Assembly (NCBI GenBank): GCA_020725605.1 | Contig: DYER01000099.1 | Span: 1-46,034, forward strand | Source of the DNA: Ammonifex sp. | Lineage (GTDB): Bacteria; Bacillota; Desulfotomaculia; Desulfotomaculales; DYER01 | Direction: 5' to 3' | DNA length: 46,034 nucleotides | Shown here: positions 483 to 36,562 of the stretch, piece by piece | Position numbering within the stretch: the first letter of the stretch is position 1 | How the letters are laid out: each line of letters begins with the position of its first letter | Notes under the pieces: generated by a model | What the model was told of the DNA's origin: nothing | The model's input: the letters and a program-made list of their open reading frames with translations, nothing else | Databases searched by the model: none | Made by a program: the position numbers and the translations under genes

Positions 483-498
483 TGCAACATCCGTGCCA
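483..498 (-). promoter_or_regulatory. Sigma-54 (-24/-12) promoter for the thiolase
   Basis: On the minus strand this reads TGGCACGGATGTTGCA, a full match to the sigma-54 consensus TGGCAC-N5-TTGCA with GG and GC exactly 10 bases apart. Transcription would start near 472, giving a leader of about 127 bases before the thiolase ATG at 345. Confidence 0.85.
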
Positions 499-609: not shown

Positions 610-629
610 GCGGTGCGTAGCGGCACCGC
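610..629. promoter_or_regulatory. Putative enhancer palindrome 1 (sigma-54 activator site)
   Basis: GCGGTGCGTAGCGGCACCGC is a perfect 7-6-7 palindrome of the GyGGTGy-N6-rCACCry type. It lies between the divergent sigma-54 promoters, with its centre about 123 bp from the -24 GG of the thiolase promoter, a normal enhancer distance. The same motif class occurs three times upstream of the 13.3-kb operon. Confidence 0.65.
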
Positions 630-684: not shown

Positions 685-704
685 CCGGTGACGAAGAGCA
701 CCGC
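685..704. promoter_or_regulatory. Putative enhancer palindrome 2 (sigma-54 activator site)
   Basis: CCGGTGACGAAGAGCACCGC has the GGTG-N8-CACC core with imperfect outer arms. Its centre is exactly 21 bp (two helical turns) from the next palindrome at 706-725, the spacing also seen between the two promoter-proximal sites before the 13.3-kb operon. Confidence 0.65.
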
Positions 705-705
705 C

Positions 706-725
706 GCGGTGTGAGCATGCACCAT
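706..725. promoter_or_regulatory. Putative enhancer palindrome 3 (sigma-54 activator site)
   Basis: GCGGTGTGAGCATGCACCAT has the same two 7-base arms as the site at 13156-13175 (GCGGTGT and GCACCAT) around a different 6-base spacer. Its centre is about 62 bp upstream of the -24 GG of the plus-strand promoter, nearly identical to the arrangement at 13.2 kb. Confidence 0.75.
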
Positions 726-775: not shown

Positions 776-791
776 TGGTACAAGGATTGCA
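776..791 (+). promoter_or_regulatory. Sigma-54 (-24/-12) promoter toward the ligase-crotonase fusion
   Basis: TGGTACAAGGATTGCA matches TGGCAC-N5-TTGCA with one change (C to T, frequent in real sites), and GG and GC are 10 bases apart. The first gene downstream starts at 1311, so the predicted leader is about 500 bases long. Confidence 0.75.
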
Positions 792-8142: not shown

Positions 8143-8227
8143 ATCCGACCGCCCTGTGTTTAATAATGAAACTTTGCGCGGGGCTTTTGTGTTTCACCGT
8201 TTAACCTGCGGGGTGTTGTCTTTTCGG
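8143..8227. repeat. Dispersed imperfect repeat, copy B (85 bp)
   Basis: Counterpart of 389-474. It begins where the transposase fragment ends and stops 11 bases before the livH sigma-54 promoter. It contains GTTTAATAATGAAAC (8158-8172) and GTTTCACCGTTTAAC (8191-8205). Reverse-complementing the second gives GTTAAACGGTGAAAC, so the two are inverted copies of GTTwAA-N3-TGAAAC with centres 33 bp apart. The position directly upstream of -24 fits an activator site; the junction with the transposase also allows a mobile-element end. Confidence 0.6.
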
Positions 8228-11740: not shown

Positions 11741-13024
11741 ATGAGAAAACTCAAAACGTTCGGGCCGGCGCTGGTGGTCGTGGCCGCACTCCTGTTGGTG
11801 GTGGCGGGCTGCGCCGGGCAGGGGGGCCGGCAGACCGCGAAGGAAATCGTCATCGGCTTCAACGGGCCCCTGAGCGGGCCGGCCGCGGAGTACGGCCGGG
11901 ACTGCGCCAACGGCGTCGAGATGGCCATCAACGAAATCAACGAGGCGGGCGGCATCACGGTGGGGGGGCAAAAGTACGTCTTCCGGCTGGAAAAGCTCGA
12001 CCACCGGGCCGACCCCTCCCAGGCCGTGGCCAACGCCCGGCGGTTCCGCGACCAGTTTAAGGCGCGGGTGATCTTCGACTGCGTGTTCAACTGCATCGCG
12101 CCGCAGCTGGAGATCAACCAGGAGAAGGGCAACGAGTTCCTGATGATGGCCTGGACCTCCACTCCTAAGCTGGTCGAGCTGGGGAACAAGCTGGCCGTGG
12201 CCATTCCGCCGCCCTTCACGGCGTACATGAAGGCCTTCATGGACATGGCGTGGCAGGAGGGCTACCGCAAGGTGGCCATGGTCGTTACCGTCGGGGCCTA
12301 CGGCGACGAGTGGCGCTCGATATTCAAGGAGGAGTGGCAGAAGAGGGGCGGGGTCATTACGGCCGACCAGCCGGCCAATTACTACGCGCAGACCGATTTC
12401 TCGGCCCAGCTCACCGCGGCCCTGGCGACCAAGCCCGACGCCCTGCTCATCGGCGGGCCCTCCAGCACGACGGCGCTGGTCATCGAGCAGGCCCGGAACC
12501 TCGGGTTCAAGGGCGGCTTCATCCTGGTGGACCAGGCCAAGATGGACTACATCGTAGACGTCGTCTTCAAGGGGAAGACGGACCAGATGGGCACCACCTT
12601 TGGCGTCGGCGCCATCGCCCAGTATCCGTCGCCCGCGGCCAAGTCCTTCAACGAGAAGTACCAGGCCAAGTACCAGGTGCACAACACCTGGGAGGCGGCG
12701 GGCAACTACACGGCCATGCACGCCCTGGCGAAGGCGATGGTGGCGGCGGGCACCGTGGAGGACGTCGCGGCCATCAGGGCCGCCCTGGAGAAGGTTTTTC
12801 CCATGACGGGCGACAAGTATCCGGCGGAGATCCTCGGCATTCACAAGAACGGCCAGATGCTGATGATGGCCCTCCCGCAGGCGATCAAGGGAGGAAAATA
12901 CACGGATCCCTGGCTCATGGTTTACTGGACCAGAACCCAAGAGGGCTTCGAACGGGTCAAGGAAAAACTGACTATGCCTCAGTTGGCCAGGTGGGTGCCG
13001 CTCGAAGGTTATTACGTTGACTGA
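11741..13024 (+). CDS. Liv-type substrate-binding lipoprotein
   Basis: A 427-residue extracellular solute-binding protein of the Peripla_BP_6/LivJ-K type. It has a lipoprotein signal peptide with the lipobox VVAGC at about residue 23, so it would be anchored to the outer face of the membrane. IVIGFNGPLSGPAAEYG is the typical start of the mature domain. A good ribosome site (AGGGAGG, 7 bases before ATG) fixes the start. It is the last gene of the liv operon, 93 bases after livF. The binding pocket cannot be read for substrate; synteny suggests an organic acid fed to the ligases around it. Confidence 0.9.
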   Translation: MRKLKTFGPALVVVAALLLVVAGCAGQGGRQTAKEIVIGFNGPLSGPAAEYGRDCANGVEMAINEINEAGGITVGGQKYVFRLEKLDHRADPSQAVANARRFRDQFKARVIFDCVFNCIAPQLEINQEKGNEFLMMAWTSTPKLVELGNKLAVAIPPPFTAYMKAFMDMAWQEGYRKVAMVVTVGAYGDEWRSIFKEEWQKRGGVITADQPANYYAQTDFSAQLTAALATKPDALLIGGPSSTTALVIEQARNLGFKGGFILVDQAKMDYIVDVVFKGKTDQMGTTFGVGAIAQYPSPAAKSFNEKYQAKYQVHNTWEAAGNYTAMHALAKAMVAAGTVEDVAAIRAALEKVFPMTGDKYPAEILGIHKNGQMLMMALPQAIKGGKYTDPWLMVYWTRTQEGFERVKEKLTMPQLARWVPLEGYYVD

Positions 13025-13046
13025 CTTTGGTATTCCGCAAAAGTTA

Positions 13047-13078
13047 GGCAGTGGTGCAAATCCGCACCACTGCCTTTT
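13047..13078 (+). terminator. Intrinsic terminator of the liv operon; also contains palindrome P1
   Basis: GGCAGTGGTGC-AAATCC-GCACCACTGCC is a perfect 11-bp stem with a 6-base loop followed by TTTT, 22 bases after the binding-protein stop codon. Its inner 20 bp (13051-13070) also match the enhancer palindrome GyGGTGy-N6-rCACCry, and its centre is 84 bp (eight helical turns) from the next palindrome. It may therefore serve both as terminator and as activator site. Confidence 0.75.
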
Positions 13079-13134
13079 GCGATTGTGTCGGTGTGCCGGT
13101 GCTTGAGGAGGTGAGGGCCGGCGAAGAACCCAAT

Positions 13135-13154
13135 GTGGTGTATTCCTACACCAC
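13135..13154. promoter_or_regulatory. Putative enhancer palindrome P2
   Basis: GTGGTGTATTCCTACACCAC is a perfect palindrome with the GGTG-N8-CACC core. Its centre is exactly 21 bp from that of P3, so both sites face the same side of the helix. Confidence 0.75.
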
Positions 13155-13155
13155 T

Positions 13156-13175
13156 GCGGTGTCTAACTGCACCAT
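13156..13175. promoter_or_regulatory. Putative enhancer palindrome P3
   Basis: GCGGTGTCTAACTGCACCAT has arms identical to the site at 706-725. Its centre lies about 62 bp upstream of the -24 GG at 13228-13229, the same geometry as before the fusion gene. Confidence 0.75.
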
Positions 13176-13226
13176 AGTCATCGGTCTGCGTGCCGGGTGC
13201 CCGCCCGGAGTCGGGGAACCGCTTTC

Positions 13227-13242
13227 TGGTACGGTTATTGCA
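13227..13242 (+). promoter_or_regulatory. Sigma-54 (-24/-12) promoter of the ligase/beta-oxidation operon
   Basis: TGGTACGGTTATTGCA has GG-N10-GC spacing and differs from the consensus at one base. Transcription would start near 13254, only about 17 bases before the GTG start of the first gene. Confidence 0.8.
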
Positions 13243-13270
13243 TATAAAACGATACTGAGAGGTGGTAGGG

Positions 13271-14902
<1,632 letters not shown>

Positions 14903-22849: not shown

Positions 22850-23069
22850 AATGCCCTCCGGGTCAAGCGGGTACCTCAAGGAGAAGCTGGGGAGGCCAGA
22901 GGTTATTTCCATAACGCCCGTTCGGCGCTCGACGAGGAGAGGGCAATCTCGTTGCCGTGGGGTTGCAGTCAGCAGTCGGTATTATTGGGGCGGCGGATTT
23001 CCTCGAAAAGGGCCGGAGCGATGATAAGTGCGGCGGTTTACGGGACGCTTAACGAAGGGAGGAATACCG

Positions 23070-25136
23070 GTGGTCAGGGTGAGGCACGTAATGAGTCGGG
23101 CCTTCGTGATTCTTACAGAAGAGGTCGCAATCCGGGAGGCCGCGGCCAACTTCCAGGAAAAGCCCATCCGGCGCATCGTGGTTGTAGACAGGGGTCAGCC
23201 CGAAACGGTTGTGGGCATTATTTCCACCGAATGCTTCCTCAAGGCCATAACTGAGGGACTGGACTTCCGTGCCCCCGTGGGGAACATCATGTACCGGGAG
23301 TTCTGCACCGTCCATGAGGAAGCCCCCGTGGAAGAGCTTCCCCGCGAGACGGTACATACGGTGGTGGTCCTGAACGGAGCGGGGCATGTGGCCGGCATTT
23401 TAACCCGCAGTGACCTGATGGCCATCCACGGCGGAAACTGCTGGCTACGCAACGAGCAGGTCAAGGCGATCTTCGACGCACTGCCCAACGGAGTGGTGTT
23501 CACCGATAACCGGGGGACCATACTGCTGGTCAATAAGGCGGCCGAGGAGATGCTCTGCGAGGACGCGGGAAAGCTTGACGGGTTGTCCTATTGGGACGTG
23601 TTTCAGGACGAACACCTGTCTGAAGTGTTGGATACCGGCGTGGCGGACAGGAATCGAAGGCAAATCATAAACGGGGTAGTGGTTCTCCGCAACATCTTCC
23701 CCAGTGTCAAGGACGGCAAGACATGCGGAGCCCTGGTTACCTTCCAGGACGTCTCGGAACTCGAAATGCTGGCCGACGAGCTGAACCGCGTCAAGGAGCT
23801 AAATCGTGACCTGGAGGGTATTATCGAATCCTCCTTCGACGGCATAGTGGTGGCCGATGGCTCGGGAAGGGTGTTGAAGTGCAACCGGAGCTTCACCGGC
23901 CTGGCCCGTTGCCTGCCGGGAAACCAGTTTAGCGAAACGGTTGTCGAACCGGTTATCTCGAGGGCTCTGAAAAGGGGCAAGACGGTCACAATTAAGAAAA
24001 CCGTGGCCGGTAACAGGGAGCTGCTTCTGACGGCCAACCCCATTTTCGGCGACAATCAGGCCATCGAAAGGGTGGTCTGCAATATCCGGGATATGACCGA
24101 GCTGGAATCGCTCAGGAGGGAAATGGAGCAAAGCAAGGATCTGTCCATCCGCTATTGCGAAGAACTGGCAACCTTGCGCAGTCTCCAGCTGGAACTGGCC
24201 AATCTGGTGGTTTCCAGTCCGGTTATGAAAAGGGTCGTTGAACAGGCGATACGCGTTGCGTCCGTGGACTCGACCGTGCTGATCACGGGCGAAACCGGCG
24301 TCGGCAAGGAGGTTATCGCCAAGCTGATTCACCAGCACAGCCCTCGTAAGGACAAGCCGTTTATCCAGATAAACTGCGGGGCAATTCCCGAGGCCTTGAT
24401 CGAGTCCGAGCTGTTCGGCTACGAAAAGGGGGCCTTTACGGGTGCCAGCAGGACCGGCAAGGTTGGCCTGCTGGAGGCCGCCAGTCACGGGACCCTTCTT
24501 CTGGACGAAATAGGCGAACTTCCGCTGCCCCTGCAGGTCAAGCTACTGCGAGTGTTGCAGGAGCAACAAATCATAAGAGTCGGCAGCGTCAGGCCGACCA
24601 AAGTAGACGTAAGGATTATCGCGGTTACAAACCGGAACCTGGAAAAGATGGTCGGAGAAGGTCGCTTTAGGGCCGACCTGTTCTACCGGCTGAACGTCGT
24701 ACCCATTTACGTCCCGCCGCTACGTGAGAGGAGAGAGGATATAATTTCGCTGGCGCAGTATTTCGTGGAGAGATACAACAAGAAGTACGGCCTGAACAAA
24801 AGGCTCGCTCCGGCTGCGCTTGCGGTGCTGGAGAGGTACAACTGGCCGGGCAACGTACGCGAACTGGAGAACGTGATCGAAAGAATGGTTATCATGAGCG
24901 GCGGGCAGACCATTGAGCCGCACGAGGTACTGGGATACCTGCAGGAGAAAGCCAATCCGGTGATGGGGGTGGAGGATATCATCCCCTTGAGAGAGGCCAG
25001 CGAAATGGTCGAAAAGCAGCTCATCCTGAAGGCCCTTGCCAGATTCAAAAGTACCCGCAAGGCGGCACGCGTTCTGGGAGTCGACCATTCCACCATAGTC
25101 CGCAAGCTGCTCAAATACCAGCTTCAAAGCGGTTAA
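23070..25136 (+). CDS. Sigma-54-dependent transcriptional activator with CBS and PAS sensor domains
   Basis: A 688-residue enhancer-binding protein. Order: a CBS-domain pair (about 1-115, with VRVRHVMSRAF and GILTRSDLMAIH), a PAS domain (about 130-235, FDALPNGVVFTDNRGTILLV), a second PAS (about 255-345, IIESSFDGIVVADGSGRVL), an AAA+ domain (about 385-620) with Walker A GETGVGKE, the sigma-54 contact loop GAFTGA and Walker B LLLDEIGEL, and a C-terminal helix-turn-helix STRKAARVLGVDHSTIVRKL of the TyrR/Fis type. GTG at 23070 is chosen because GGGAGGA lies 6 bases upstream; the track start 23028 has none. CBS pairs bind adenine nucleotides, PAS domains small ligands. It sits between the two dehydratase genes and is the natural candidate to bind the palindromes at 610-725 and 13051-13175. 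Confidence 0.93.
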   Translation: MVRVRHVMSRAFVILTEEVAIREAAANFQEKPIRRIVVVDRGQPETVVGIISTECFLKAITEGLDFRAPVGNIMYREFCTVHEEAPVEELPRETVHTVVVLNGAGHVAGILTRSDLMAIHGGNCWLRNEQVKAIFDALPNGVVFTDNRGTILLVNKAAEEMLCEDAGKLDGLSYWDVFQDEHLSEVLDTGVADRNRRQIINGVVVLRNIFPSVKDGKTCGALVTFQDVSELEMLADELNRVKELNRDLEGIIESSFDGIVVADGSGRVLKCNRSFTGLARCLPGNQFSETVVEPVISRALKRGKTVTIKKTVAGNRELLLTANPIFGDNQAIERVVCNIRDMTELESLRREMEQSKDLSIRYCEELATLRSLQLELANLVVSSPVMKRVVEQAIRVASVDSTVLITGETGVGKEVIAKLIHQHSPRKDKPFIQINCGAIPEALIESELFGYEKGAFTGASRTGKVGLLEAASHGTLLLDEIGELPLPLQVKLLRVLQEQQIIRVGSVRPTKVDVRIIAVTNRNLEKMVGEGRFRADLFYRLNVVPIYVPPLRERREDIISLAQYFVERYNKKYGLNKRLAPAALAVLERYNWPGNVRELENVIERMVIMSGGQTIEPHEVLGYLQEKANPVMGVEDIIPLREASEMVEKQLILKALARFKSTRKAARVLGVDHSTIVRKLLKYQLQSG

Positions 25137-36283: not shown

Positions 36284-36562
36284 TACTTAACGACATTTCC
36301 ACCGGCGGCAGGAATTTCCCGCCCTGCCGTCGAAATTACAGGGGACCCGGCGGAGGCGATGACCCGCGGTCCCGACGTGGGCGCCAGGGGACGCGGAATA
36401 GCTGGTGGCGCAACCGGCCGCCGGGAAGATTCCGTTTTGCGCGCCGCGGCGCCCACTGACCACGTACCCGTCCCCTTTTCAGACGGCCCTCCAGCATCCT
36501 GCGGCGCTCGCGCACCCCACCTTCCCGTCGGCTCCCGCGGCGCGCGGAGAGGAGAAAGTTCC

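Follow-up and report, generated by a model that had tools for sequence, protein, structure and literature searches.

The junction of the liv and acyl-CoA ligase operons

The window analyzed here, a 46,034-nucleotide stretch of DNA from Ammonifex sp., carries a liv-type ABC operon whose last gene encodes a periplasmic binding protein (11741..13024, + strand). It is followed by an operon that begins with an AMP-forming acyl-CoA ligase (13271..14902, +) and continues to 19476 with genes for a 3-hydroxyacyl-CoA dehydrogenase, an acyl-CoA dehydrogenase, an enoyl-CoA hydratase, and a second ligase. Three palindromes can be read directly from the sequence between the two operons, namely P1 (GTGGTGCAAATCCGCACCAC, 13051-13070), P2 (GTGGTGTATTCCTACACCAC, 13135-13154), and P3 (GCGGTGTCTAACTGCACCAT, 13156-13175), along with a sigma-54 -24/-12 promoter (TGGTACGGTTATTGCA, 13227..13242, +) that reads TGGTAC-GGTTA-TTGCA and matches TGGYAC-N5-TTGCW exactly, with the correct spacing. 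Within the palindromes we predict activator boxes, assigned to neither strand: TGGTGC-AAATCC-GCACCA in P1 (13052..13069), TGGTGT-ATTCCT-ACACCA in P2 (13136..13153), and CGGTGT-CTAACT-GCACCA in P3 (13157..13174), respectively 158, 74, and 53 bp upstream of the -24 element. The centers of P2 and P3 are 21 bp apart and those of P1 and P2 84 bp apart, while P3 is centered about 62 bp from -24; an earlier note on this DNA had described these palindromes, the promoter, and the three distances, and all agree with our direct reading and re-measurement. The pattern GGTGYN6RCACC occurs three times in 13025-13226, whereas among 5000 dinucleotide shuffles of that interval it occurred once in 21 and twice in none. 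The arms, YGGTGY/RCACCR, show the geometry of TyrR boxes (TGTAAA-N6-TTTACA; PMC4894688), two 6-bp arms with 6 bp between them, and the TyrR arm sequence TGTAAA/TTTACA itself is absent from P1-P3.

P1 also forms the apex of a hairpin followed by four T residues (13046..13078, +). Its stem pairs 13047-13057 with 13064-13074 around a loop of six nucleotides and amounts to 11 bp, or 12 bp counting A13046-T13075 (ΔG -31 kcal/mol, z -8.9); the hairpin lies 22 nt past the stop codon of ORF 11741-13024. In being a stable GC-rich stem-loop right after an operon, with T residues behind it, it is like an intrinsic (Rho-independent) terminator. Unlike a typical one, it has a predicted protein-binding box as its apex and a T-run of only four (TTTTGCG), as against the U-tract of at least about five expected of such terminators. 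A strict scan of 12900-13400, which asks for at least 5 T in 8, called no terminator, P1 being missed because of this short run. Thus, the hairpin with T4 that had been claimed around P1 is present, while its assignment as the liv terminator did not pass the strict scan; we nevertheless regard it as the probable end of the liv operon. The loop and the upper part of the stem would come from the P1 box with its 6-nt spacer, and the lower stem from its flanks, such that one stretch would carry both a DNA-level and an RNA-level function.

The short T-run and the empty scan would equally fit a hairpin that does not terminate, with P1 acting only as an enhancer and liv being either read through or ended elsewhere, for example, by Rho. 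We consider this unlikely, given that six pairs of the stem lie in the flanks, beyond what the box requires, that its stability and its placement just past the stop codon are as given above, and that relatives have clear terminators with a box at the apex (see below).

Three promoters with paired boxes and a candidate activator

Pattern searches of the genome assembly (2.2 Mb in 115 contigs, estimated to be 85% complete) returned 20 exact matches to the -24/-12 consensus, versus one for a reversed-pattern control, with four of them in the window, at 483(-), 776(+), 8239(+), and 13227(+). Single GGTGYN6RCACC sites number 56, versus seven for the control. Box pairs spaced by 21 bp, with one mismatch allowed, occur exactly three times, where about 0.001 would be predicted from nothing but the density of single sites (56 in 2.2 Mb), and each lies upstream of a consensus -24/-12 element. 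The pair is thus present at only 3 of the 20 consensus sites, its proximal box ending 52-53 bp upstream.

Besides the promoter at 13227, one of these is the sister sigma-54 promoter at 776..791 (TGGTACAAGGATTGCA, +), ahead of a ligase/enoyl-CoA hydratase fusion gene at 1248. Its proximal box (707..724), middle box (686..703, with one mismatch), and distal box (611..628), likewise unstranded, end 52, 73, and 148 bp from -24. The near-constant offset of 52-53 bp and the shared pair spacing of 21 bp bear out the claim that the enhancer/promoter architecture is repeated at 685-791, and the arms of P3 are indeed identical to those of the 706-725 site (GCGGTGT / GCACCAT). To the two copies first noted we add a third, on contig C20, with a promoter sequence identical to that at 13227 and a short-chain dehydrogenase as the gene it drives. 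Measured from box end to -24, the boxes thus stand at 53/74/158 bp (13227), 52/73/148 bp (776), and 52/73/126 bp (C20), with distal-to-middle spacings of 84, 75, and 53 bp, that is, about 8.0, 7.1, and 5.0 helical turns of 10.5 bp each. A further site, C89:29317, has a core equal to that of P1, which we set aside as a coincidence; it lies within ORFs and has no promoter near it in the stretch read.

These distal boxes bear on whether P1 is an enhancer at all. Two boxes can suffice for enhancer-binding proteins (EBPs), P1 is as far as 158 bp from -24, and a strong hairpin directly after liv is expected in any case; hence, P1 could be only a terminator that resembles a box by chance or ancestry, with P2 and P3 as the sole enhancers. 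Against this, P1 fits the box consensus best, with both 6-bp arms perfect, a distal third box is also found at the other two copies in the genome (126 and 148 bp), and P1 and P2 are in helical phase, all of which make this account quite improbable.

The surroundings of the sister promoter have further features of their own. A divergent -24/-12 site (TGGCACGGATGTTGCA, 483..498, -) faces a minus-strand gene at the left edge of the window; the boxes at 612, 687, and 708 are flanked by 483(-) and 776(+), and one enhancer cluster may serve both directions. An element of about 85 nt, with TGAAAC...GTTTCA arms, has only two copies in the genome, 80% identical: one at 385-475, beside the 483(-) site and in opposite orientation to that promoter, and the other at 8143-8227, just ahead of the liv -24/-12 site 8239(+). 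The leader of about 450 nt between the 776 promoter and ORF 1248 (792-1247) gave no Rfam match.

The genome encodes RpoN (PF04552, E 2.4e-63, contig C55) and about a dozen EBPs, the genes of two of which are cut by contig ends. The candidate activator, encoded at 23028..25136 (+), 10 kb from P1-P3, has the architecture CBS-CBS-PAS-PAS-AAA+-HTH_50 (PF00158, Sigma54_activat, E 1.8e-71; HTH_50, E 6e-15), with the GAFTGA loop in the AAA+ domain and the C-terminal HTH of an EBP, and the recognition helix GVDHSTIVRK. As a query, its HTH peptide found only itself in the genome assembly, so that no second TyrR-type (HTH_50) domain was found there, and the other visible EBP C-termini look Fis-type; its best NCBIfam match, PrdR, was below the cut-off, and no box adjoins its own gene. 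From the sequence, we consider it probable that P1-P3 are sites of a sigma-54 activator with a TyrR-type HTH, likeliest the 23028-25136 EBP, and that P1 is built into a probable liv terminator; the same activator most likely serves the 13227, 776, and C20 promoters. Adenine nucleotides are frequent ligands of CBS domains, which would be in keeping with a role in acyl-CoA metabolism. Such an assignment would link an orphan sensor-activator of this metabolism, the candidate activator, to a concrete box and a regulon of three promoters.

In the mechanism we propose, EBP dimers on P2 and P3 would share one face of the DNA at a distance of two turns, and a third dimer would sit in phase on P1, another eight turns upstream. 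Together they would seed assembly of the AAA+ ring, which would open the -24/-12 promoter at 13227 and thereby switch on the acyl-CoA ligase/beta-oxidation-type operon. We infer the binding, activation, and termination steps, as well as the activator's identity, from the boxes, their spacing, the promoter, the hairpin, the EBP's domains, and their recurrence elsewhere.

Among known systems, the nearest parallel is with GcsR and other TyrR-like EBPs (PMC4894688), in which a TyrR-type HTH is likewise combined with 18-bp palindromic boxes, three of them upstream of a sigma-54 promoter, as in the three 18-bp sites of Pseudomonas GcsR (PMC4894688). The boxes here differ in being GGTGY/RCACC rather than TGTAACG-N4-CGTTCCG or TGTAAA-N6-TTTACA, and, unlike in GcsR, the sensors are CBS and PAS domains, one box lies in a probable terminator hairpin, and the target is a fatty-acid/acid-activation operon. 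PAS/CBS sensors and multiple upstream activating sequences before sigma-54 promoters also feature in the Clostridiales sigma-54 EBP regulons, as presented in the main text of PMC6615313; the PrdR-group motifs given there are TGT...ACA, unlike the boxes here, and the string GGTG/CACC is absent from that main text. We would see the system as a new member of the TyrR-type sigma-54 regulons with its own box, its novelty being a predicted box that doubles as a probable terminator.

Recognition helices and boxes in related loci

We gathered about 120 loci of TyrR-type EBPs in the order, aligned the HTHs, and removed identical ones before counting; exact boxes were counted from -400 to +600 bp around the EBP stop codon. 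When the proteins were sorted by position 2 of the recognition helix (for His, as in GVDHST), an exact box was found near 11 of 34 distinct His-type sequences in the order and near none of 57 Gln-type ones; for His against all others, p = 2.3e-5, an optimistic value in that kinship is ignored. An exact box is missing near the stop codon of the remaining 23 of the 34 His-type EBPs. The sole box-bearing 'other' in that test, L334, has the helix AVDHATVLRK and is thus His-type too; its boxes lie 51, 133, and 153 bp from -24, a layout near that of the window. By gene ends, GATGC-N6-GCATC occurs at 8 of 56 Gln-type loci (e.g., L313, L244, L314, and L339) as against 0 of 34 His-type ones, which is suggestive only of the Gln-type helix going with this box, as if His/Gln chose G/A at base 2 of the half-site. 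The HTH class of the 23028 EBP accordingly co-occurs with GGTGY-N6-RCACC in other genomes, and a single recognition-helix residue (His/Gln) appears to sort with the box (GGTGC/GATGC), which could help predict the targets of many uncharacterized TyrR-type activators.

In pattern searches, noncoding box pairs elsewhere in the order lie only beside homologs of the 23028 EBP; of the single pair matches in the order's other genomes, three (L158, L159, and L162) seem to fall within coding sequence. Across 84,980 species genomes, the matches listed for the pair pattern are mostly simple repeats and chance occurrences, and among them Serratia and Luteimonas have a pair with a nearby -24/-12 site, with one mismatch each. 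An Achromobacter locus, also with a pair and a nearby -24/-12 site, was set aside because it fits an NtrC site.

This last case touches on the possibility that the boxes are read by another EBP. The strongest alternative activator is an EBP with a PrpR_N-PAS-AAA+ architecture, whose gene precedes the C20 promoter by about 1.5 kb; an NtrC-like protein might instead read the RCACC-N5-GGTGY element between paired boxes. The NtrC consensus resembles this element, and the Achromobacter match, upstream of an apparent nitrite-reductase gene, fits NtrC. However, a true NtrC box (GCACC-N5-GGTGC) should also appear at solitary sites, and N5 is found only between paired boxes, where it arises automatically from the 21-bp pairing; the solitary boxes (P1, 612, and the distal C20 box) keep N6 and thereby fix the box register as N6, with the N5 element as a by-product. 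As for the PrpR_N protein, its HTH is Fis-type, whereas the box has TyrR geometry, and the noncoding pairs of other genomes in the order are not beside its homologs. We therefore judge a reading by either of these EBPs to be rather unlikely. Palindromic operators are common, and the boxes could, in principle, belong to a repressor or another non-EBP regulator unrelated to sigma-54 activation. This we deem very improbable in view of the near-constant offset to -24/-12 at the three promoters and several promoters of relatives, and of the association of the boxes with EBP genes of one recognition-helix type.

The 23028-EBP homologs extend beyond the immediate family. In four genomes of another family (genus g8), a 21-bp box pair overlaps the 3' end of an EBP gene whose product is 44-45% identical, and at the next promoter, which precedes a sodium:solute symporter gene, the distances of the boxes from -24 are 52/97/118 or 76/121/142 bp. 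In these (L211-L214), the pair overlaps the final codons and the stop codon of the EBP gene, and behind it comes a conserved but degenerate TCGCAYGGAGTTTGCG, possibly a weak -24/-12 element. The series of EBP gene, boxes, sigma-54 promoter, and symporter gene recurs in L211-L214 (g8) and in L300, L321, and L327 (f11), and the g8 and f11 symporters have a similar N-terminus as judged by eye. This arrangement suggests a conserved carboxylate-uptake switch across two families.

Boxes within terminators

The overlap of box and terminator seen at P1 recurs in L240, L321, L341, L263, L265, L300, L327, L330, L332, and L359. It is clearer elsewhere than at P1: L240 has ATAGTTGGTGC-GGTGGA-GCACCAACTATTTTT, and the f11 genus has terminator boxes of the form AAAAAAGCATGGTGC-ATTACA-ACACCATGCTTTTTT or AAAAAAGGAATGGTGC-AGGACA-GCACCATTCCTTTTTT. 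An alignment of six f11 species, all of one genus, shows the box, hairpin, and -24/-12 site to be kept while the surrounding DNA has diverged, the lower stem shifting from GCAT/ATGC to GGAAT/ATTCC. Among 399 genomes of the phylum that were scanned, 21 have a box followed by T5; L359, L363, L364, L366, and L367, which have this combination, adjoin His-type EBP genes, and three of them are outside the order. Of 52 distinct boxes, 11 have flanks that extend the pairing by three or more contiguous base pairs, against 1.0 expected (0 of 5000 permutations reached 11); since L359 was picked partly for its T-run and several of the 11 are orthologs, the independent lineages number only about five: f1 (the window), f4, f11, f16, and f64.

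The idea of a terminator doubling as an enhancer thus fares in two ways: the box as terminator apex recurs beside related EBP genes, including in four other families, while P1 itself is missed by the strict scan. The recurrence argues that the predicted double role is more than a one-off. In relatives, the terminator with the box follows the EBP gene itself; in the window, it follows an unrelated operon, liv. Through its spacer of 6 nt, a palindromic box already provides a hairpin with a loop of that length, and the overlap may be favored by crowded intergenic regions without functional coupling. In the literature searched, with few subscription journals covered, we found no description of an enhancer box inside a terminator.

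A bolder and, at present, doubtful reading is that EBPs with a His-type TyrR-like helix use such 'terminator-enhancers' as a selected device, in which box occupancy and termination or read-through would influence each other: the bound activator would strengthen termination or block polymerase, and heavy upstream transcription would clear the enhancer. That occupancy of the box affects read-through from liv into the ligase operon, as the earlier note had raised, is speculation by analogy, conceivable because DNA-bound proteins can block polymerase, as in the study of LacI as a roadblock (PMC4132739). As there, polymerase could be held up by a protein on the DNA downstream of a transcribed gene, here as a possible consequence only. 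More generally, the DNA of a terminator behind one gene can serve to regulate the operon that follows, and the recurrence of the overlap means that the annotation or trimming of promoters should not treat terminators as neutral.

Elsewhere in the window, a c-di-GMP-II-GAG riboswitch (36343-36428; Rfam RF03169, 40.2 bits, barely over the gathering threshold) lies close to the gene for a bacterial sugar transferase, part of an exopolysaccharide cluster.
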